From: Sphaerolaimus hirsutus
Taxonomy: Eukaryota; Nematoda; Chromadorea; Monhysterida; Sphaerolaimidae
DNA length: 64,000 nt
NCBI GenBank assembly: GCA_964036195.1
Contig: OZ038455.1
Location: 3,675,855 to 3,739,854, forward strand
Direction: 5' to 3'
Positions within the stretch are counted from its first letter, which is position 1, and every line of letters begins with the position of its first letter. The notes below the pieces were generated by a model. That model did not search any database and was not told the DNA's origin. It saw only the letters and a program-made list of their open reading frames with translations. A program made the position numbers and the translations under genes. Shown in pieces: positions 28,101 to 50,100 of the stretch.

Positions 28101-29782
28101 AATGAATCGTTACCTAATGGGTGAATGAATCGTAATGGGCTCGCTTATGACACACAAACTTTACCTACACAAATGGATTATGCCATTACACTGTCCCCTT
28201 CATAGGCACCACAACATGGCACCATTGGCAATAAGAAACATGAGTTTTAACATCATTCAATACATATGCCAAGCCAATCAATGATATATCATGCATATGG
28301 TGTGGCAATGCGCACTTGTGCACACAATTTTTGGAAAAATTTGTTAAAAATTCATATGAACATAAAATTTTTCTGGACATTATTCAATGAGAACCCTGAC
28401 TAGAAATTTGCCAAAATTTCGAGTCAAGTCAAGCAAAACCCCAAGTCTCGAGTCAGGGCCATATTTTTCCGGTCGAGTCGGGTGAGTCGAGTCGGCACCC
28501 AATTTTACCCTTGAGTCACGAGTCAAGTCGAGTCGAGTCGAGTTCGAGCCCCAGTGGGAAGTTATTCAATGGGGGAAGTTATTCAAGGGTGGGGAGTTAT
28601 TCAAGGGGACGGGGGGTCTTATTCGAGGATATACGGTATATAAGATTTTACCAAAATGGCAGACCACTACACAATGGTAAACTAGGGTGTTTCTGCACAT
28701 TTTGTCAAATTAAACAATGATACATAAAATTTCCAGCTTGTCAAAATTCCGGCTTGGCAACACAGAGTTGCAAATTTCACCCATTGAAAGTTCATCAAAT
28801 CAGCTTTCAGTGTGGCTGCATACTGGTGCCACTACCAGACCCTGTCAAGTTTCCTGTAAAATGTTAAATGTCATGCAAAGTGTCAAAAGTCATGTAAAAT
28901 GCCCTGCAAAATGGCAACCGAGTTGCATTTTACACGACTTTTGACACTTTGCATGACATTTGACATTTTACAGGGCACTTTACAGGGTCTGGGAGTGCCC
29001 CCTGATTACGGTCGTCGAATGCGTGGTTTCAATGCCTCATATGTGGCAGGTTCGTGTTTTGGGACAGTTTTTTTTGGAGACATTTGGAAATGTGATTATC
29101 ATGAAAATTCGCCTGCATAACAGGGATGGCCAGCGCTTTTTTCAACTGTCATATTTTTAATTAAAAAATTGCTTTAAAAGTGCACATCTGCAAGCACCTT
29201 TTTTAAAAGCACTGGCCAATTTTTCCAGAATTAAAAAAGTCTGGTGTGTTTTGAGTGTGAAATAGGCAGGTTAGAAAACTCAGGACATAAAAAAGCAAAA
29301 AATGCCTTTTATTTAAGAAATAGCTTTTATAAAGAGCAGGGGCACTGAAAAAATTGCCCGTTTCCACCCCTAGTACAGAATCATTGTCATTGAATTTGTA
29401 AATGCTGACTTACAAAAAAATCTAAAATAGCTGTCTCGCTGCACATAATCCATTATCAATAAAGGTATTTCTCATCTGTATTCTCAAATATTGTCTGTAT
29501 TATAGATGTTCTGTCACCCTAAACTAGCCCAAACATTCTAGAATATTTTCCATTTTCAGTGACCACCGCACCACAAGCAGTGGAGTAGAATTGCTGCCAT
29601 GGATGCAACTTGACAGAGTCAATGTCAATGATGGAACAGAAGTTTTCAATGCCATTTTTCAACTGATAGATTCTTATTCATTTCATTCATTTATTAAAAT
29701 ACACTGTAGTGTTCCACTAGTGTGCTGTACCCGCAGAGGTCAGGTTTCAGCATTCATTTATAAGGCAGCAGTTAGTATGTAA
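7104..29782 (+). CDS. Secreted multi-CUB protein, 17 exons, about 714 aa
   Basis: Exons: 7104-7167, 7718-7961, 8908-9029, 13657-13778, 14142-14278, 14988-15130, 17831-17926, 18441-18579, 19865-19992, 23083-23161, 24377-24554, 25627-25699, 25770-25876, 26912-27054, 28737-28825, 28996-29053, 29560-29782. Their lengths sum to 2145, a multiple of three, and all phases agree. Order: N-terminal signal peptide, five CUB domains (two-layer beta sandwiches that bind proteins or sugars outside the cell), then a short tail with HCSVPLVC. Domains are separated by phase-1 introns, the class expected for shuffled extracellular modules. The introns are loaded with MITEs and one is itself a transposon. Two weaker points: the donor GTTGGT after 7961, and the end of exon 16 (29053 keeps frame; a better-looking GCAG|GTTCGT at 29049 does not). 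Confidence 0.7.
7718..9029 (+). CDS. CUB domain 1 (exons 2-3)
   Basis: Exon 2 opens with two cysteines (CNCSS) and carries the CUB signature GIIKSPNYPEHYC, then ECTWIIEP. Exon 3 gives the C-terminal strands, FITPPGAGVTLQFESDYV and HGFFATFTRVN. These follow the usual CUB order: first Cys, G-x-I-x-SP-x-YP, C-x-W-x-I, then a buried GF-x-A-x-Y/F end. The intron between them holds a foldback at about 8340-8520. The donor at 7962 (GTTGGT) is weak. Confidence 0.75.
8340..8520. repeat. Short foldback (arms about 8359-8408 and 8457-8506)
   Basis: 'catgatttccgttcgcgtca' at about 8359 is repeated inverted as 'tgacgctgacggaaatcatg' ending near 8506. The inner part is also complementary (ccgcggaatgcaattaag against cttaatcgcattccgcag). 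It lies in CUB-gene intron 2. Confidence 0.6.
9162..9352. repeat. GGCGCC hairpin element starting TAGTGATGG
   Basis: It starts 'tagtgatggaaaaagcgcc' and is made of GGCGCC hexamers. The right end runs into a T-rich stretch, so the copy is probably truncated there. Confidence 0.7.
9520..9680. repeat. GATAGATAGATAGC-containing repeat fragment
   Basis: It contains 'gatagatagatagccgg' and long C runs ('ccccctccaacccccgcc'). Similar wording, including 'gatagatagatagctgg' and C runs before 'agacccctgctttt', occurs at about 62420-62565, so both are fragments of one family. Confidence 0.45.
9880..10096. repeat. GGCGCC hairpin element ending TTTTCCATCACTAG
   Basis: A dense GGCGCC core closing with 'gcgcttttccatcactagtc', the inverted 'TAGTGATGGAAAA' terminus. 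Confidence 0.7.
10276..11193. repeat. Long inverted-repeat element, arms about 190 bp
   Basis: Left arm: 'gctggaaaaacgcaatagct' to 'gtgattttgtgacttg' (10276-10450). Right arm: 'caagtcacaaaattac' to 'agctattgcgtttttccagc' (11020-11185). The two arms are imperfect complements. The element sits inside an ACTCGAGTA-type repeat, flanked left by 'tactcgagtaccgagg' and continued after 11210 by 'gtactttattaatag' and further units to about 11490. Its interior carries a second repeat ('gcttgtgacattcac'). Confidence 0.65.
11205..11490. repeat. Right half of an interrupted ACTCGAGTA-type repeat
   Basis: 'tttactcacgagtagaagta', 'gtgagtaaaaacaaaatact' and the terminus 'gtacttttaacaactctg' match the intact copy at 52252-52761. 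The left part lies at about 10235-10275, so the foldback at 10276-11193 inserted into it. Confidence 0.55.
11748..11882. repeat. GGCACC/GGTGCC hairpin element
   Basis: It begins 'agtgattgaaaaggcaccgg' and repeats GGCACC, GGTGCC and CACCGG units. The layout and 'AGTGATnGAAAA' end match the GGCGCC family, but GGCGCC is replaced by its CpG-to-TpG/CpA derivatives. Confidence 0.6.
12085..13095. repeat. GCTTGTGACATTCACA repeat split by an insertion of about 860 bp
   Basis: 'gcgcttgtgacattcaca' at 12108-12125 continues as 'attcacattagccaaaattt' at about 12986, exactly the sequence that is continuous at about 10665-10700. The intervening block has 'aaacgtaaacgtaaacgtaa' units in both orientations (12150-12610) and the orphan exon at 12677. 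Confidence 0.5.
12677..12772 (+). CDS. Possible orphan first exon (32 codons), function unknown
   Basis: An ATG at 12677 opens 32 codons (MLKTGSKRTHKSPSDCAADM, then SEDNSTPTAAAP) ending at CCA|GTAAGT, a near-perfect 5' splice donor. The stretch is GC-richer than its surroundings and lies in CUB-gene intron 3, in the insert that splits the repeat above. No downstream exon was identified. It could be the start of a mobile-element ORF, a nested gene, or chance. Confidence 0.3.
13380..13592. repeat. GGCACC/GGTGCC hairpin element ending TTTCCATCACTAA
   Basis: Dense GGCACC and GGTGCC units; the right end 'tgcctttccatcactaactg' is the shared terminus. It lies in CUB-gene intron 3. Confidence 0.65.
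13657..15130 (+). CDS. CUB domain 2 (exons 4-6)
   Basis: Exon 4 (13657-13778) opens SGCPETFYEVPHHGTLEISS and reaches GGVMNCYVVID. Exon 5 (14142-14278) gives the middle strands (YRCSIKLTLQNFESSG, AESWYLYE). Exon 6 (14988-15130) gives ITLPMDYTSLGQRLVIEH and the closing NGGFKVTVERS. The SP-x-YP signature is changed to SSAGFPK and the Trp after the second Cys to Tyr, so it is a divergent CUB. Donors are GTAAAA, GTGAAA and GTTATT; phases run 1-0-2-1. Confidence 0.65.
14302..14934. repeat. Div_element: G-run/C-run MITE region in CUB intron 5
   Basis: 'gaggggggtcaaacgag', 'ggggggtatttcgaagggg' at the left and 'aatacccccccccc', 'aactattcaagcaattacgg' at the right. It is a diverged, probably composite copy of the ACCGTATT family. 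The middle contains 'cagcgtttgagtctcc' and 'actagtgcgctgagcc', which recur inverted around 26280-26350. Confidence 0.5.
15255..15367. repeat. ACCGTATTTCCTCGATAAAC C-run element
   Basis: Opens 'accgtatttcctcgataaac' then C runs with 'cgaaatacccccc'. Only one end is clear. Confidence 0.55.
15484..16952. repeat. Large foldback element, arms about 700 bp
   Basis: Ends 'caccttcccgatcaagtccg' and 'cggacttgatcgggaaggtg' are exact inverted repeats. Inner blocks also mirror: 'caggcggtttttggcaactc' near 15810 against 'gagttgccaaaaaccgcctg' near 16605; 'ggtcatgtgg'-flanked blocks near 16015 and 16420; the centre is near 16200. The arms have diverged, so the element is old. No transposase frame is apparent. 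A right-end fragment recurs at 22027-22263. Confidence 0.75.
17057..17167. repeat. C-run element ending AAATACGGTA
   Basis: 'cgacataataaccccccctc' through 'ttttgaggaaatacggtacc'. It abuts the AATAGAATGG family element on its right. Confidence 0.55.
17160..17580. repeat. AATAGAATGGCA family MITE
   Basis: 'tacggtaccatatttcttct' at the left, 'ctattagaaaaaatgcggta' at the right, and several inner 'cctccaatagaatggcagg' units. Two relatives lie at 26459-26845 and 48478-48598. Confidence 0.6.
17831..19992 (+). CDS. CUB domain 3 (exons 7-9)
   Basis: Exon 7 (17831-17926) has ACKCLDASQ and MTSPGYPNLQYCTNMN, the CUB start with SP-x-YP. Exon 8 (18441-18579) continues the second-cysteine segment (SYQFECEEG) and GDSYDYLDLLD. 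Exon 9 (19865-19992) gives the closing strands HFYTDNTVTNSGYNVSFEC. The donor GTTAGT at 17927 and acceptor atttacag at 18440 split one codon so that a Cys is rebuilt at the junction, which supports the model. Confidence 0.7.
18118..18250. repeat. AAACGTAAACG-type repeat fragment
   Basis: 'tttttacgtttacgttttat' and 'ccaaaaataccagtatttg' match units at 12150-12610 and 56540-56690. It is preceded by 'tatacttggcggacag', a motif also found at 13802 and inverted at 32687 and 36130. Confidence 0.45.
18704..19371. repeat. Composite C-run element (TTGAATAACTCC units)
   Basis: Opens with a C run at 18710 and includes repeated 'cttgaataactcc' units at 19020-19110 and 19270-19330, ending 'tttttcaaggatatatggta'. 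It is a member of the ACCGTATT family with eroded ends. Confidence 0.5.
20007..20332. repeat. C-run element (GAATAATTCCCCCC units)
   Basis: From 'ctgtatttgcttgaatagtc' to 'gggattattcaagcaaatac', an inverted pair. It starts right after CUB exon 9. It holds 'gcgaaataataatcccc'-type units. Confidence 0.6.
20590..20775. repeat. TTCGAAAATT low-complexity palindromic tract
   Basis: Iterated 'ttcgaaaattcg' with the inverted half 'cgaattttcgaatttt'. A second tract lies at 21560-21755. Together with the 'gatggcaaaaa' / 'tttgccatcgtta' flanks they could be the two ends of one element spanning about 20588-21757. Confidence 0.5.
22027..22263. repeat. Right-end fragment of the 15484-16952 foldback family
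   Basis: 'gggggccggatctgtgtggg' and 'acatccggagatagag' and the end 'gggccgggtctaactgggca' parallel 16725-16952. About 22270-23080 has no recognised feature apart from AT-rich intron. Confidence 0.6.
23083..25699 (+). CDS. CUB domain 4 (exons 10-12), divergent
   Basis: Exon 10 (23083-23161) has SFEHPESGCPHIDCIYVLEE. Exon 11 (24377-24554) has YDFVMNVTMTPLEPDGYLQI and later HKFSAQATDQYVRLDMPT. Exon 12 (25627-25699) closes with HASTEMDSVPRNVGFSVNYR. The order of strands and the GFSVNYR end fit a CUB, but no separate first cysteine or SP-x-YP motif is visible. Either this domain has lost them or a small exon upstream of 23083 was missed. Phases are 1-2-0-1 and join cleanly. Confidence 0.55.
23356..23780. 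repeat. ACCGTATTACC...GGTAATACGGT element, complete
   Basis: Terminal inverted repeat 'taccgtattacctcgaa' / 'ttcgaggtaatacggta'. The interior has 'ggggggtttattcgagg'-like units and G runs of up to 9. Best copy of the family in the window, together with 5957-6377. Confidence 0.75.
23959..24256. repeat. CCGTATTTGCTTGAATAA element
   Basis: Opens 'accgtatttgcttgaataat' and closes 'ttattcgagcaaatacagta'; a member of the same family with the alternative 'GCTTGAATA' terminus. Confidence 0.65.
24793..25305. repeat. 513-bp MITE with TA duplication (Tc1/mariner-like)
   Basis: Ends 'cagggtggggcaatttag' and 'ctaaattgccccaccctg' are inverted repeats flanked by TA on both sides, the hallmark of Tc1/mariner-type insertion. 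Relatives: 47834-48373, and a fragment at 63962-64000. No transposase frame seen. Confidence 0.75.
25770..29053 (+). CDS. CUB domain 5 (exons 13-16), interrupted by a transposon-intron
   Basis: The most canonical CUB here. Exon 13 (25770-25876): CQCGEQA, WLTSPDYPSNYC, LDCYW. Exon 14 (26912-27054): VLLEFTDLQTERGNFDHVSI and YDGAVTG. Exon 15 (28737-28825): LQISPIESSSNQLSVWLHTG. Exon 16 (28996-29053): DYGRRMRGFNASYVAG. The acidic residues in the TER and FDHVSIYDG segments are where calcium-binding CUBs carry their ligands, so Ca binding is possible. Exons 15 and 16 are parts of one ancestral exon: the intron between them (28826-28995) is a foldback transposon. Three residues (VPP) derive from the insertion. 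Confidence 0.7.
25896..26229. repeat. GGCACC/GGTGCC hairpin element
   Basis: 'actagtgctggaaaggcacc' at the left and 'gccgtatttccatcaccagt' at the right frame dense GGTGCC/GGCACC units. It begins 20 bases after the donor of CUB exon 13, so reading through gives a false long ORF. Confidence 0.65.
26459..26845. repeat. AATAGAAGGGCA family MITE
   Basis: Ends 'accgtatttcttctaataga' and 'tctattagaagaaatacggt' are a clean terminal inverted repeat. Interior units 'ctaatagaagggcgtctc'. Length about 387 bp. Confidence 0.7.
27148..28640. repeat. Element with TATCCTCGAATAAG end, carrying a nested CGAGTC element
   Basis: Outer ends 'ctgtatatcctcgaataagt' (27150) and 'cttattcgaggatatacggt' (28618-28637). 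Nested inside at about 27455-28553 is an element whose ends are runs of 'gagtcgagtc' ('ctcgaaactcgggc' and 'gtcgagttcgagcccc'). The outer half-units 'gtgggaagt' and 'gtgggaag' flank the nested insert on both sides, as expected for a target duplication. Confidence 0.6.
28829..28999. mobile_element. hAT-like foldback (introner-type) inside the CUB5 coding sequence
   Basis: Terminal inverted repeats 'ccactaccagaccctg' and 'cagggtctgggagtg', with the interior folding on itself ('gcaaagtgtcaaaagtcatg' against 'acgacttttgacactttgc'). It belongs to the family at 40383-40683, which has a perfect 8-bp target duplication. Here the duplication is eroded (tactggtg / ccctgatt). Splicing GTGCCACT...TCTGGGAG at 28826-28995 removes it and restores frame. 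Reading through reaches a stop by about 28944. Confidence 0.7.
29560..29782 (+). CDS. Last exon of the CUB protein, possible partial ZP-like tail
   Basis: The acceptor is tccattttcag. The exon codes VELLPWMQLDRVN, EVFNAIFQLID, FIKIHCSVPLVCC and ends RRGQVSAFIYKAAVSM, stop TAA. The 'F-x-A-F-x-F ... I-x-C-x-V-x-x-C' wording recalls the C-terminal half of a zona pellucida module, and CUB+ZP proteins are known in animals. However, a full ZP module is about 260 residues and only about 70 are present. It may be a remnant, or exons between 29054 and 29559 were missed. No AATAAA is obvious after the stop. Confidence 0.4.
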
Positions 29783-38100: not shown

Positions 38101-41100
38101 TCACAATAAATATTTACATCCAAATACGATCAAAATCACCCCCCCTCAAACAAAATCCAACACAAAAAGCACCCCCAAAACCCACATCCGCCTTCAATTC
38201 CAGCGCGCTTTCAGTAACTTCATTCATCTGCAACGATTCATCCAACTGTGCCAATGCGGCCGCGCTGGCGCAGGGAAGTAAAAATGTGCGCGATAGTCCA
38301 TCGTTGTTCACTATCTGGGCAATTAAGTATAAATTAATTAGCGAGTGATTTATTAATTGGGATAATTGATTTGTTGGTGGAAATGTTGACGAATGTGGTG
38401 GTGAAATAAGTTCGATGTGTACTAAATTTGGTGATGTATTCCTCGAAATTATTTATCGTACATTGTTCATACGGCAACAAAAATTTGCGGGAGGTTCCGA
38501 GGGTAGAGGGTAGTGCCAAAGGGATGATTCAAGAAAGTACTATCATTTTTCCATATAAAAGATGACAATTTAAAACAAATTCACAGTAAGCACTTCCAAA
38601 TTTTACATTCCTACAAATTTCTGCCAAAAACGACAAAAAGAAACCAACCACAAATGCATTGGCACCTGGTTGTAGCACTTTATAACTGTACTGAGTGGCT
38701 ACTTCACAATCAGACTGAACTTTATCTGTGACTGCACCAATGTTTGAGGCACATTTCAGAGTCATTTTGGCACTAGCTGTGATATTGGGAGGAAAATAAA
38801 ATTTGGCAATTTTTATTGAGTAATTTCGAAAGAAATGAAATAAATCTGCTTTATAATACTATGATAAATGTTCAGTAATGTTACAATTACCTCCAAAACT
38901 TGCAATTTCAACATAAAAATAAACTGACCAAATTGTGTATATTGTGTAAACTGCTGTGTGGCGATTTTTTGCTGAGGTTTGTGCTTGAATGAACCCAAGC
39001 AAAATGCCCTTTCCTCGGGTTTAGAACTGTCTGGCACAATGCCAACCAGCCGATTAACTGGTACCTCAGTTGAAGATTGTGACTTTTCACTGATGTTTTC
39101 TGCCACTTTCTGCTCAGAATTTGATGTCAAAATTGCTTTTTTATCTGGCTGTTTTATTGTTTCTGCGACAGGTGATCGATTCTGATCATTTGCCACAGTA
39201 GATTGCATTTGTTTTGCATCATGTACTTTTTTGCCAGACTGATCTGTAATGTGAAACAGGGAAAAGTGTTTAAATGAGGAAACTTCCAAAATCAAGAATT
39301 AAAATGTTTTTTTATGTAGTGACAGGGAATACCAAAACGCTGACAAATGCTGACAACCAAAGCTTGCTTGCGAGCCATCAAAAACGTGCCAGCGCCTTGG
39401 CAGTAAAAATTAGTTTGCTGACAACACGCTGACAGGTTATCTGGTGCATTTTGCAGCATGTTCAATTTTGTATAGTGCACACTATCAACAAGCTGACAAA
39501 TGCGATGTTGAGCATAAAAATATTGTCACTTAACTGCATAAATGCTTGAACTATATGATAGTGAGGGAACACTGTGTATGTACATACCGTATATCCTTGA
39601 ATAAGACCCCCCCTTGAATAATACCCCCCCCCCTTGAATAACACCCCCATGTTGGCCAGGTGAGGAAAAAATAACGCCCCCCCCCCTTGAATAACTCCCC
39701 CCTCTTGAATAAGTCCCCCCTCTGGGTAAAACGATCAATGAGCAACACACGAAAATGAAAACGAGACAAACAGAAAAATAAAGCTATGTCTGGGCTGATC
39801 CATCGAATGGGGTTTGGTGTGTGAAACGAAAAATACAAAAGAATGTTAGCCTATGATATTTTTTAGGTTTAGATGATTGAACACAAATTTTAGGATGGAT
39901 ACGTTGTTTTGTTAGTGTTGAACTGGTCATTTTCTGCATTAGATGTGTTGGCGGGATGCATACAAACAATGAATAAAGTGAAAAATTTTCCTGGAAGTTC
40001 TGAGGAAAAAATAACTCCCCCCCTTGAATAGTACCCCCCCCCCCCCTTGAATAACTCCCCCCTCCAAAACCTCTGACGAAATAATAACGCCCCTGGGGTC
40101 TTATTCAAGGATATACGGTAAGCCCCAATAAGAAAAATAAACACTCATTTTAGAAATATTTTCACCACATTACATACATATTATTCCACATAAAAACAAA
40201 AAATGAAAACAACCTGCAAGTGAAGCTGCACTTTGTTGCTCAACTTTATCATTATTCTGTTTCAAAATACCCCTTTCCGGAGCCGTTTTTTCAGACACTT
40301 TTCCAACGTTTGTCAAAGCATCTTCCTTTTTGCCAATGCTAGTTTTTGGTTTCTGCGCGGCACGTTCAGAAACGACCAGGGGACACTCCCAGACACTGTA
40401 AAATAACATGTAAAATGTAAAATGTCAAACTTGTCTGCCATTTTACAAAGCATTTTTGATCACTTTTGACACTTTGCATGACATTTGCCATTTCACAGTG
40501 GATGTTTGATGAATTTTGACACACTGCATGAGATTTTCATTTTTAACGCATTTTACATGACTTTGGCAAATTGCATGAGATTTACCATTTTACAAGCGAT
40601 TTTAGACGACTTTTGACACTTTACATGTCATTTTACTTGTCTTTTGTCATTTTACAAAGCATTTTACAGAGTCTGGGAGTGGTACCAGGGGAGATGGCAA
40701 AGGATTTTGCGTTGGCGCTGGCGCTTGGCGATTCGCAGATGGCAGTTTGTGGTTGAGAATGGCGTCGATCCCGCTTATGAGCACCTGTAGTTTTTGGTTG
40801 ATTGTTTTGGCTGTGAATGAGGTTATTTATCATAGTTACAGTAATAAGTTGATTGATAACGAGGAGATTTGATGGAATTTATACCATTTTCAGAGAATAA
40901 AAAGCATATTTGGGATGGATATTGCTCACAATTTATCCACACGTTGGAAAGTCACGGAGTGTTACAAACATATAACCGGAATCGGAATTATGCGATATAA
41001 AGCGGGAATTAGAGCTCAGCGTCGATTCGACGTGAAATGATGACGTGAAATGTTTTCGTGAAATTAATTACACGAGTGTGGATCATGCTACGGGTCTACA

Positions 41101-44100
41101 ATTTTCTAAGGATAATATATGAATCAATACCTTAATCGTGTCCAATACTGAGTGTTATCAGCCACAACTAGAGCGAATTGAAAAATTCAATTTTTATCAT
41201 TCCACGTCATCATTTTACGTCAGGGAACAACTTGACATTTCACGTCAGACTATTGCAAGCAAAAGTCTGACGTGAAATGTCAAGTTGTTCCCTGACACTG
41301 TGACGTGAAATGATGATGACGTGGAATGATAAAAATTGAATTTTTCAATTCGCTCTAGTTGTGGCTGATAACACTCAGTATTGGACACGATTAAGGTATT
41401 GATTCATATATTATCCTTAGAAAATTGTAGACCCGTAGCATGATCCACACTCGTGTAATTAATTTCACGAAAACATTTCACGTCATCATTTCACGTCGAA
41501 TCGACGCTGAGCTCTAATTCCGGCCTAAGGACCTCTGAAATTGGAACTTCGGAAGGCAGTTCGTCGAAATTCGGAAACTTCCCCTTGCATAATTCCACCA
41601 AAAATTTATTTCACTGCCGTGTGTCACTGTGATTGCGCACACTAGTTTTCACACGAAATTTCGAAAACTCACAAATCAGCTTAGAACGCATTTGCGTTTC
41701 CTACAATGAGGTGGTTGTCAACTACAGTTGACGGAGATTAAAAATGACTCATTGTGGAAAACTCAAACAGGTTTAAAGCTCATTTATGAGTTTTCAAAAT
41801 TTCATGTGAAAACTAGTGTGCGCAGGGCCATTAACTCATGGCATTATGTCATAAAGGTGCACATAGGTGAACAACTCCATGCACAAAACTCTAATTATGC
41901 TTAAGCTAACATTTACCACAGGATCACATTTGGACAGGCATCTTGCGTACAAAAGTCCTACACACTTGTTTTCAACTGGATCTTGAGAAACTCCCACCAA
42001 ATGAGCTTTGAATGCATTTGAGTTCACTGAAATAAGTCCTTTCTAATCCCAGTCAACAGTAGTTGACAAACAGAGCATTCTGGTAAACTCAAATGCATTC
42101 AAAGCAGATCTATAAGTTTTCAAAATGTTGGATGAAAACTAGTGTGTAAAAAAATCTAATCCACCAAAAACCACACAAACCTGTTCCCCCAATCCAGCGG
42201 CCCTCCTCAAAGTTTGCACATTGTCAGCGCTATTCAAAATCTGCACCAAGGTTTTTCCATCGCCAGCCAAACCGATTACATTCAATGGGAGCGGTGAACC
42301 CAATGGAATGTCCCGAATAAAATCATCTGCTGGGATGTCTGATGCAAGGAAGTCTGGGGGGGGGGTAAATTGGGGGGTAAGTTTTCATGTGATAATTGAA
42401 ATCTGGGATTTATTTTTTTTGTTGATATTATGGTTAACAGTAGCTCAAATTTTCACAGTAAGACGAAAAATGACATGGCATTTGAAAGAAATGAAGAAAT
42501 GAATTCTGCTCAGGCTGTGATACTGCTTGTCTTCATAACACATTTTACAAAAAATCCAAATTGTCACAGAAAAATCCTCCAAGTGGTTCACCAACACTTT
42601 CTCTACAGATTACCTTACAACTTTGTTTCACAACTTCAGCGTGCATAACAAAACAAGCTACCATGGTAAATCTCAATCAAACCGCAACACCCCAAAACAA
42701 CCCACAAGACATCCCAAGAAAAACCAACCCCCAAGGGTGCACTCAAACGTGGCAATGGGCACCTTAGCAATATCACTGGGTAACGGCCACACTCGTTCCA
42801 GGGTTACCCACTCAGTGGCTCCATAGTCCACAAGTGCCACCCTTCTCTGAAGAGACCCCCCTGGCCCACTGAGGGTCATTGGGTCACCCAAAACTAAAGC
42901 GCGTGAGAAGCAACCTTCCCCTTCACCATCAGAGATTATTGGGGTGCCTGGCATCAGGTTGTTCTGGGGGGGGGGGGTGATTTTTTTATTTTTTTTAGTG
43001 ATTTTGGATGTAATGAATGTCAATGGATTTTCGTGCAATCACTGTGCTGGTCCTTCCTAAGTGGAACATTTTTGTTTATTGGCCATCTGAGATTGGCCAT
43101 CTTTAAAAATTTACAGAGCAGTTGAAAGTAAATTTCTGAAATTCACATCAGGTCCCATCCCAGCCACATGAAGGTCATTGTGCCTTGTTTGAAACTTCTT
43201 CTCAATTTTGTGCAAAACAGTTCACACAAAAACCCTTGGATTGCACCCATCAGACCTAAGACAACCCACAAAATTTCAAAATTGAACATCCACCCCCCTT
43301 AACTAACCCTAATTAGCCTCACTCTGGGTCCCTGTATTTCATTTGAATTAACCAACTGTGCCAATTCCAATTCTAAGTCAGCAGCCACCAGTGCCCAGTG
43401 AGCTGGCATCACTGCAAAATCACTGGGCCCATTGTTGTGAGTTACCTGAAAAGTAGATGTGAGTACAGTACTGTTGATGGGTGAGTTTCTGTGTTTCTGG
43501 TGCCACTCCCAGACATGGTAAAATGTAAAATGTCATGCAAAGAATGTCTGAAGCCAATTCAGCAGCAGAAAAGTAACCAGAGTAGTGGTAAGAGGTCACA
43601 AAAGTTGTAATTGATACCTCAAGGTTTCTTAAATATAAAAGATATAAACATTTACAATTGTTCATCACTCAAACATTCAACCACAACAAAACTCACAATA
43701 GTCTGCAAAGGACCACATTCAATGGGCAGCCATTCATAAGCATTCAATTCCGCAAACTTCATCACCCTAGTAGGTGATGCTGCCAAATGTTTTTGCTTTT
43801 CCTTCTGTTCATCATTGACCAAATGTGCAGCAGGTACCAATTTGGTACTATCAACCACACTCTTATCATACACACTGGTACCATTTTGGTGCACTTTGGC
43901 TGGTGTCTGCTGTGGAGGCATGGCACAAGGCTGCTTTAAACCTGATTTTGGTTGTTGCTGTTTGGTAGCTAGTGGTGCCTGTTGTTTCACCTGTGGCACT
44001 GGAGTTGGTACTTGTGCCTGTGCCTTGTTTGGTGCTGAAATGGCAAATAAAGAAGAATTGAAAAACAACAAACAAAAAACTAGTTAATTCAATGGTTAAG

Positions 44101-47100: not shown

Positions 47101-50100
47101 CTTGGGAGTGCCCCAGCTCCGCGAATGAACAGGTTGAACTATAAACAACAGAAAAATTTTTTACAAAAAATATGAATTTTTATATAATTTTTACAAAAAT
47201 ATGAATTTGTATACAATTTTACAAAATTTTTACAAAAATTCAAATTTTTATACAATTTTTATTTTTATTTTGAAATTTTCCATTTTATTTTATTTTATTT
47301 TATTCTTCAATTTTCCATTTTATTTTTATTTTATTTTTATTCTTTTCTGAGATTTTGCCAACCCTGATCATGACGTCATTCCTAATGAAAAAACAATTGT
47401 TATTATTTTTTTGTGAAAGTGAGTGCATAAGTGTCGCGTTGCTGCGTTGGCGCGTAAAACAAGTTTGTGCGGATGTGTATACACTCTACTCTTCGCCAAG
47501 TATACGTAAACGTTTACCTACTTGAAAAACGGCTGCCAAAACTAATTAATTTGGAGTTAACAAATTAATAACACATATTTTCAAAAATAAAAAAGCAACA
47601 AACTTTTGCACCACCACCCTGGCCTTGGAGGGTTTCAATCTGGACTGAGTTATATCCTCTGAAATTGAAGCTGGCTCCTTGCTCTGACTTCTTTCTCGTT
47701 TGGGCGTCATTGTGCCCGTGTTATTGGCTACCTGCGAGAAATTGCGGCGTTTTAATTTGCATTTTCAATTTGCATGTGCAAACTTACATTTCAATTTTCA
47801 AGGATTGGTGTGGAAAGGCACTGCTGTCATATACAGGGTGCGGCAATTTAGACATGCGCTCTAGATTTCGAATAACCTGTCACTGGGTGGTCGGATTAAC
47901 GTCAAATTTTACGTCAACATTAACAACTAAATAGGAAAGTATCCCTGACAATATGGCTGCGATAGCTCCACTCGTTCTCAAGTTATTCATGCAAACGCGT
48001 AATTGTCACTTTACCACCACCCCGTGATAGGTTTCAAACGGGATACACTTTTCGGGACACGGATCGGGATTGGGATTGTTTTTTTCTGTTTTTTTCTCTC
48101 TTTTTTGCAGCGGCATGCCAAAATGCGTTCGCGCGCGCCACTAATCCACCTTACCGATAAGGAAATCGGCAGACGCTTGCGTAATTGGTTGTAAAGCGAC
48201 AATTATTGGTGTTAGCATCAATAACTTGAGAACAAGTGGAGCTATCGCAACTATATTTTCAGGGATCCTTTCCTATTTAGTTGTCAATGTTGACCTAAAA
48301 TTTGACGTTGATCCGACCACCCCGTGAGAAGTTATTCAAAATCTAGAGCGCAGGTCTAAATTGACGCACCCTGTATTTTCTATTGAGAGCAAAGACAGAA
48401 AATTTTACACTTTTTAAACAACACTTGAACTTTATGGTTTTCATCGAGCAAGACCGCCATTTGTGCCTTCATTGGATTTGAGGTATACCTTCTATTGGAG
48501 GTATTCTTTTTATTTATTTCGTCACGTTCAAAACGGCCGAAAACTGTACCTTCACTTAGAAGGTATAAAAATACCTTTTATTTGGGGTAATACGGTAAAA
48601 AGCATTTTATTTTTACCTCACCTGTCTAACTCTGGTCCTTTGGTCCGTACTGACGTAATCACTGCAAAATGACATTGGCCTATTATTAGGCACCGCTGGT
48701 TTATTCGAGACATTATTTCCATCTGCATTTGTCACCGGGGATTGCGATCCTGAGAATTTTTGAAATTCGATTTTTAATGATGATTAGTTTTATGAATTTG
48801 GAAAACATAATCGATTTTTCCTGTGGCCACTCCCGGACCCTGTAAAATGTTTTTTTTTCCTTGACGTTTGACATTTTTCAAGACATTTTACATGACATTT
48901 GTGGTTTTACTTGACATTTTCAAGGTCTGTGAGACTGAGTGGCACCTGATGAAGGCACAAAAACTGGGTATATTTTACATAGAGGAAAAAATTATCTGAG
49001 AATTGCTTGGGCAAACTTTTTTTGGTATGGTTAAATAGTTTGATTCTGTCTGAAATTATCTGCTGCTATATTCAACGAATTTATTACGTTTACACAGCTT
49101 TTTATTAGAAGTGGATATGTGACGGTAACTACACTGGCGCTGGCGCCTTTACTCTGGCGCCCAACGCCATTCCTCTGAATGGTGCAACAGTGGTATTTTT
49201 GGCGCATTGCCAGTGCGATCACTGGAAAATATATTTAAATACATAAATACAAAGCGCATATATTTAAAATTATTGTGCAATTTGAAAACTTTTTCATGAA
49301 TTTTTTCACATTAAATCGGGCAACCCGAAAAATTCGTCGGGCAGAAAATCGATCCCTAAAAAATCACCCGTAGAAGTCAGTCCTCTCTTTTCCAAATCGC
49401 TCAAAACCGCGGGCAGATTTTTACTGTGCGAAGTGTCCCCGCCGCCGGCGATAATCCGAATTCTGGGACGGCGTCTGCAAAAAAACGCGATGAATATTTT
49501 TGCAACTTGAGTAAAATAAAATTGCGTCTGTGCAAAATTGAATTAGCGGTGAGTAAAATGGGAAACTTTTTGCAACTGTGCTGAGACTAAATGGTTCTTA
49601 ATGACGTCACAGACGCTGGATGTCAACTGAATTCGTGTCAATTAAATTTTAGTGAATTCTGTGATTTCAACTTTCCTATCCGATAGACCATTGTTAATTT
49701 TACACCGTGACAATTATTTTTCATCGTTTCTGTTATAAGTGTGATGTTTACTTTTTATTTGTTTTTTTGTTATGTAGTTGACATTGACACGAATTTAGTT
49801 GACACGAATTTGCGATGTCAACTAGCGTGTGTTGCCTCAATGACGCATTTTTGAATGCATTTGGATTTAGAATATTCTTTTTGTATATTTACAATGGGTT
49901 CATTCATTGGCGCCCGTGTGCGCCAATCCCGCACTCTGTAAAGTGCAAAGTAAAGTGTCAAATGTCATGTAAAATGCCATACAGATTTGTCAAATGTCAT
50001 GCAAAGTTGATGCAATTTGACAATCTGACAAGGATACCTATTGGTAAGTGATAAGAAAAGTGGTACGTTAACAAGAAAAAGTCTCAATAATCTAGATACC

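Follow-up and report, generated by a model that had tools for sequence, protein, structure and literature searches.

A putative introner-like MITE that duplicates CWG targets and splits coding exons in the nematode Sphaerolaimus hirsutus

The 306-bp element that cuts a coding exon of a multi-Tudor gene in the nematode Sphaerolaimus hirsutus is real, and we consider it rather probable that it represents one copy of a highly abundant, non-autonomous DNA transposon (MITE) which duplicates a CWG target, resembles NuwaI/Harbinger elements and splits exons with intron-like edges; removal by the spliceosome, and the choice of splice sites at copies with a CTG target, we infer from sequence. The family probably makes new introns, to judge by its predicted splice sites, and on its anatomy the most apt description is that of an introner-like animal MITE.

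Results

Element, ends and copies in the window

The window, a stretch of 64,000 nucleotides (contig OZ038455.1 of assembly GCA_964036195.1, positions 3,675,855 to 3,739,854), holds three copies of the family. The Tudor copy (40380–40685, minus strand; boundaries set via the CWG rule) ends in inverted repeats and is bordered by the 5' and 3' copies of a 3-bp target duplication (40686–40688 and 40377–40379, respectively; CTG on the minus strand). Family ends are GTGCCACTCCCAGAC and GTCTGGGAGTGCCCC, which are unlike in having GTGC (end A) or GGGG (end B) ahead of CACTCCCAGAC; these are also the prevailing opening bases among 66 copies, in which end A mostly starts GTGC and end B mostly GGGG. In sense orientation, end A opens GTGCC and end B closes GCCCC, and the Tudor copy, read on the minus strand, has end A (GTACCACTCCCAGAC) first and end B (GTCTGGGAGTGTCCC) last. 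A second copy of 176 bp (28826–29001, plus strand, end A first) lies within a CUB-domain exon between two CTG duplications (28823–28825 and 29002–29004, plus strand), which bears out the claim of an earlier note on this DNA that one transposon family has inserted into coding exons of unrelated genes, Tudor on the minus strand and CUB on the plus strand. The third copy, recognised by eye (48824–48945, plus strand), has both ends and CTG on either side, and its surroundings look non-coding.

The interrupted exon (40214–40810, minus strand) encodes a linker region of the Tudor gene, for which 21 exon pieces were placed by eye between 33438 and 46244 on the minus strand, short of a full gene model. 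These pieces, chosen by eye, match Pfam TUDOR in three stretches with 98.8 bits; the interrupted exon itself has no Pfam match, and a homologue search with the pieced protein found nothing. The joined flanks of the exon are open in one frame, and the following exon continues in phase, by reading. Directly upstream of the exon, 41000–41520 holds a long, near-perfect inverted repeat (about 41010–41240, mirrored to about 41520, by eye) that is probably another inverted-repeat element.

Genome-wide abundance

A scan of 348 Mb in 762 contigs with a 22-base end pattern, allowing at most 2 mismatches, gave 8140 and 8111 matches on the two strands (16,251 in total), against 1 and 0 for the reversed control pattern in the same genome; the end pattern had no match in viral_contigs. 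On the premise that a copy matches with each of its ends, the family numbers about 8,000 copies, or one per 43 kb. Copies were sampled blind to genes: 90 sources scanned for paired ends yielded 66 pairs, including one nested and wrongly paired copy (L088_739) that was retained, and 14 of 20 later loci had an end pair. Among the 66 copies, 63 yielded an ORF of at least 45 aa (114 ORFs), while enough flank was available in 63 for a shuffle test and in 64 for a codon score; 10 ORFs from 10 of the 14 later loci were also sent to Pfam.

Target duplication and superfamily

Flank matches within and between copies were compared position by position at the paired ends of 66 genome copies (2000 permutations). 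The W of the flanking CWG matched within 44/66 copies vs 26.4 expected (0/2000 permutations) and the C showed a slight excess (55 vs 51.3 expected, 44/2000 permutations); at no position outside CWG did the 66 copies show a match excess. Both sides carry CAG or CTG in 44/66 copies and agree in 37 of these 44, as they do in 47/55 when the set is extended to 80 copies. One copy (L054_273) sits in a repeat of which three paralogs preserve the empty site, with a single CTG and an exact CTG^ join. The target duplication is 3 bp (CWG), not 8.

The earlier note had reported an 8-bp duplication at the Tudor site and attributed the family to hAT-type mobilisation, with a donor inside the duplication, a GGGAG acceptor and 9 nt always kept. 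This model has in its favour the exact repeat of ACCAGGGG on both sides of the Tudor copy (40375–40382 and 40684–40691) and an in-frame 9-nt outcome at both window sites. The repeat is in fact 9 bp (ACCAGGGGA), which we read as CTG plus host bases that happen to equal the element's own ends; the copy at 28826 lacks such a duplication, and a matching run of at least 8 occurs in just 2/66 genomic copies (runs of 9 and 10). Some exonic copies, moreover, lack GGGAG. The flank comparison of the 66 copies excludes hAT with an 8-bp duplication, and the model as a whole is very improbable.

MITEs of the hAT type are short, with inverted ends and an 8-bp duplication; the present element is likewise short with inverted ends but does not share the duplication. 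A CWG target duplication is known from NuwaI transposons of the PHIS/Harbinger superfamily, which, according to the section on NuwaI in their description (PMC4482050), have inverted ends of 12–61 bp that usually start GGG and occur in 16 animal genomes, in animals only. Like NuwaI, the element duplicates CWG; of its ends, B mostly starts GGGG and A mostly GTGC. Intron formation is absent from the same section on NuwaI (PMC4482050). The CWG duplication fits NuwaI/Harbinger elements rather than hAT.

Location in coding exons and orientation

Copies are enriched in coding sequence by ORF length, codon score and Pfam matches alike. Empty-site ORFs of at least 120 aa were found at 31/66 joined sites vs 25/151 control points, and the longest ORF exceeded dinucleotide shuffles at p <= 0.05 in 12/63 sites vs 3/73 controls and at p <= 0.1 in 19/63 vs 7/73, with no site/control difference at p <= 0.01 (3/63 vs 2/73). 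A codon score trained on Tudor exons called coding sequence on either side of the join in 13/64 sites vs 9/335 controls, or in 12/63 (Fisher p 9e-6) once the Tudor copy, itself in the training set, was left out; scored with no threshold, the best codon-bias frames on the two sides agreed hardly more often than at controls (18/64 vs 77/335). Any Pfam match was obtained for at least 12/66 copies vs 1/50 control points, with control ORFs trimmed to 60 residues on each side and site ORFs untrimmed; matches to Mak10 and DUF6518 were assigned to no particular copy. Flank GC was 0.485 at sites vs 0.42 at controls, and since the flanks are GC-richer, target preference may account for part of the exon enrichment.

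A Pfam domain spans the join in 9/66 copies, namely LURP-one, carnitine acyltransferase, triose-phosphate transporter, DNA primase large subunit, two exons of one chondroitin GalNAc-transferase (CHGN) gene, Ig, a secretin-type receptor (7tm_2; E 0.0015, below the Pfam cut-off) and CUB. A Cullin domain, its match also below the Pfam cut-off, spans the join in one of the later 14 loci. Similar elements at many places in the genome, a share of them within coding exons, are a feature that the family has in common with introners.

Read along the gene strand, end A precedes end B in 9/9 domain-spanning copies with unambiguous ends, a set made up of eight of the nine domain-spanning copies (without LURP-one) plus Cullin; the two-sided p is 0.004 if the copies are independent, and two of the nine share a gene (CHGN). 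The LURP-one and MOFRL copies, whose ends are ambiguous, were excluded. The two CHGN exons, about 1 kb apart and each with a sense copy, are both in locus L059 (1497–1762 and 2541–2704); an assignment of CHGN to L068/L070 was wrong. The copy near GDT1 (L073) is antisense, and the GDT1 domain does not extend across the join. Strand calls by codon bias (8 sense, 5 antisense) proved unreliable, since both CHGN copies and 7tm_2 were called opposite to the Pfam strand. ORF-strand calls in the shuffle test gave 6 sense, 2 antisense and 4 unclear, the antisense ones being L073 and the Tudor copy, in which the longest ORF is on the wrong strand.

Uninterrupted paralogs and the CUB exon

With the joined flanks of 12 exonic copies as queries, we searched the genome at the DNA level. 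For the CUB exon this recovered uninterrupted paralogs that align without gaps over the join (141/141 bases, 77% and 76%), with SVWLHTD-ASGRWRGFKTSYVAG aligned against SVWLHTD-YGRRMRGFNASYVAG, together with three weaker uninterrupted paralogs. LURP-one has one uninterrupted paralog, gap-free over the join (146/146 bases). For these 2/12 exons, CUB and LURP-one, the alignments indicate that an ancestral exon without the element was newly interrupted by it. For the other 10/12 the genome, at the sensitivity of this DNA search, yielded interrupted places only, one per exon and two for primase.

The earlier note had pointed to the same donor and acceptor geometry at 28826–28995 as in the Tudor gene. 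Cutting the CUB copy at 28826/28995 does leave VPP in frame; the outcome is not unique, with 13/30 site pairs in frame, and with so many pairs in frame the in-frame result at two sites cannot serve as proof. In the joined exon the CUB domain reaches 61.4 bits. Retaining VPP lowers the score to 53.7, and use of two other donors within the element to 49.4 and 49.3; the left side by itself scores 47.7.

DNA primase large subunit

A Pfam search of the genome found the primase large-subunit gene at just two loci, both carrying the element. These lie about 100 kb apart, are 99.3% alike over 2.1 kb and could represent either a duplication or two haplotypes. Of seven exon differences that separate the loci, six are synonymous, and the sole difference within the element is GGGAG to GGGAA in the second copy. 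Because a conserved replication gene is present only in interrupted form, this argues that the element is removed from the primase mRNA in at least one copy. As a separate observation, the six synonymous differences between the loci (L053, C1:3009246-3009576; L124, C1:3109242-3109572) are packed into about 60 exon bases right before the element, with just 13 differences over the first 1,740 compared bases, a cluster that looks like gene conversion or haplotype mixing.

Predicted splice sites

A sense insertion into an exon would leave CWG-GTGCC...GCCCC-CWG where CWG had stood. With CAG as the target, the product would be CAG|GTGCCA...GCCCCCAG|, a complete GT-AG intron with its 5' site supplied by the element and its 3' site by the duplicated target, and removal would restore the exon exactly, with no residue. 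At a CTG target, as in Tudor and CUB, the AG at the duplicated target would be missing and another site would be needed, whether GGGAG|TG (which would retain 9 nt and stay in frame whatever the phase), an internal site, host sites or a non-AG (TG) end. TG 3' splice sites are documented in human genes (PMC2374985). A GGGAG acceptor at CTG copies would keep TGNCCCCTG, the 9-nt residue arising because 6 element bases and the 3-bp duplication remain. Element lengths do not favour multiples of three (modulo 3, 26/23/31 of 80 copies leave 0/1/2), so selection for element length 3n is rejected; the selection for 3n residues that the earlier note had raised as a possibility is not supported.

Splice scores are rough, being derived from 19 native donors and 15 acceptors of the Tudor gene that were selected by eye; the TPT copy was outside the scored set. 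Among in-frame pairs, the exact CAG|GTGCCA...CAG| ranks first in the carnitine acyltransferase, Ig and MOFRL copies, with scores still low vs native sites (3.7, 4.1 and −0.6), and second in the Cullin (donor CTG|GTGCCA) and receptor copies. For LURP-one and CHGN1, whose right target is CAG in each case, an in-frame internal pair ending TTTTACAG outscores the exact one. The CAG|GTGCCA donor stands at the 63rd percentile of all GT; the element donor is without G at +5, which 16/19 by-eye native donors have. Some native Tudor-gene acceptors are C-runs ending in CAG.

The Tudor copy is one of the weaker examples, of the CTG kind and with weak sites. Cutting it at CTG|GTACCA and GGGAG|TG (40386–40685, minus strand), the intron proposed earlier, leaves 9 in-frame nt (CPL), an outcome that our analysis confirms. 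It was likewise correct that the acceptor TTTTACAG, the best-looking one of the element (~95th percentile), shifts the frame here, 0/5 donors being in frame and open with it. Of 20 donor-acceptor pairs 4 are in frame, all via GGGAG, as are the 3 in-frame pairs obtained with cross-gene scoring. Both proposed sites score poorly: GGGAG falls within the lowest 11% of AGs in the window (10th percentile), and GTACCA at the 18th percentile of all GT, which speaks against the strong self-carried splice signals that had been proposed. A wider scan of the exon gave 12 in-frame pairs, topped by host sites 40784/40353. Use of host sites outside the element, which the earlier note took to count against its reading, may apply to the Tudor copy.

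The 9-nt form would be unable to serve all CTG copies, because the second primase copy has GGGAA and CHGN2 has GGGAC in place of GGGAG. Targets with CAG are not significantly commoner than those with CTG (25 vs 16, p 0.21). CHGN1, Cullin and the copy beside a 7tm_1 domain have CTG on their left side and CAG on their right, a combination that would supply the AG otherwise lacking; among oriented copies overall, CTG/CAG was found in 5 and CAG/CTG in 3, so that improvement of the 3' target from CTG to CAG is only a hint.

Discussion

What the earlier note had proposed survives in part: the family does interrupt exons, and its copies could be removed in frame, while hAT mobilisation, the 8-bp duplication and selection for 3n residues have fallen away. 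We regard it as unlikely that the family is an ordinary CWG-target MITE favouring GC-rich exons, with its exonic copies damaging or neutral and left unspliced. The weak donor and the weak GGGAG acceptor would suit such an element, and the GC content of the flanks (0.485 vs 0.42) means that target preference alone could yield the exon enrichment; the sense orientation of 9/9 copies, the interruption of both primase loci with mostly synonymous exon changes, and the 10/12 queried exons for which no uninterrupted copy was found at the DNA level all argue against it. Less likely again is the use of other sites, in which an internal intron GTCATG...TTTTACAG would keep about 15–25 terminal-repeat codons in the mRNA, or host sites would drop part of the exon. 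Internal pairs are indeed the top scorers among those in frame for both primase copies, CHGN1, CHGN2, LURP-one and CUB, and host sites 40784/40353 score highest for the Tudor exon. The Tudor copy, however, lacks any in-frame TTTTACAG pair, long inserts would land in conserved domains, and the CUB score drops to 49.4 and 49.3 bits when more of the element is kept.

We thus favour the reading of a CWG-duplicating MITE whose exonic copies are probably spliced out. Its most far-reaching form, which we advance tentatively and hold to be somewhat less probable than not, is that of an intron factory, in which, given the CWG target and the GT...CCCC ends, sense insertions at CAG would be born as exact GT-AG introns, adding up to roughly a thousand in one genome, and CTG copies would be tolerated via the 9-nt fallback or a GT-TG end and improvable by a change from CTG to CAG.

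Introners as surveyed by Gozashti et al. 2022 (PMC9860276) obtain one of their splice sites through the target duplication, form families of 5 to >2,000 copies and include a codon-adding form in Aureococcus that keeps 12 bp; in animals they are reported from two groups only, and bursts there are very rare (PMC9860276). The present element resembles them in being short and non-autonomous, with inverted ends, a target duplication and a location in coding exons, and in drawing one candidate splice site from its own sequence and the other from the duplicated target. Unlike the introners of that survey, it has ~8,000 copies at all locations and a 3-bp CWG duplication, and the likeness here is one of anatomy and predicted splicing. 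'Harbinger' is absent from the main text of that survey (PMC9860276), and a literature search for 'introner' together with 'Harbinger', in a collection with few subscription papers, brought up a single paper, on fungal introns. How new introns arise is a long-standing question, and a family this large (~8,000 copies), bound to an exact 3-bp target, would offer many comparable insertions in one animal, in which splice-site recruitment, orientation bias, the outcome of CAG vs CTG targets and the cost to genes could be measured.

Further repetitive sequence was observed beside the family. Within the window, 39600–40110 and 28560–28640 contain C/G-run repeats of the type CCCCCCTTGAATAA ... TTATTCAAGGATATACGGTA. 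Elsewhere in the genome, two loci (L025 and L041, C4:2704700-2706400 and C4:2708200-2709900) carry element-like units that recur about every 500 bases, the right flank always being GACCATATGGAAACC.
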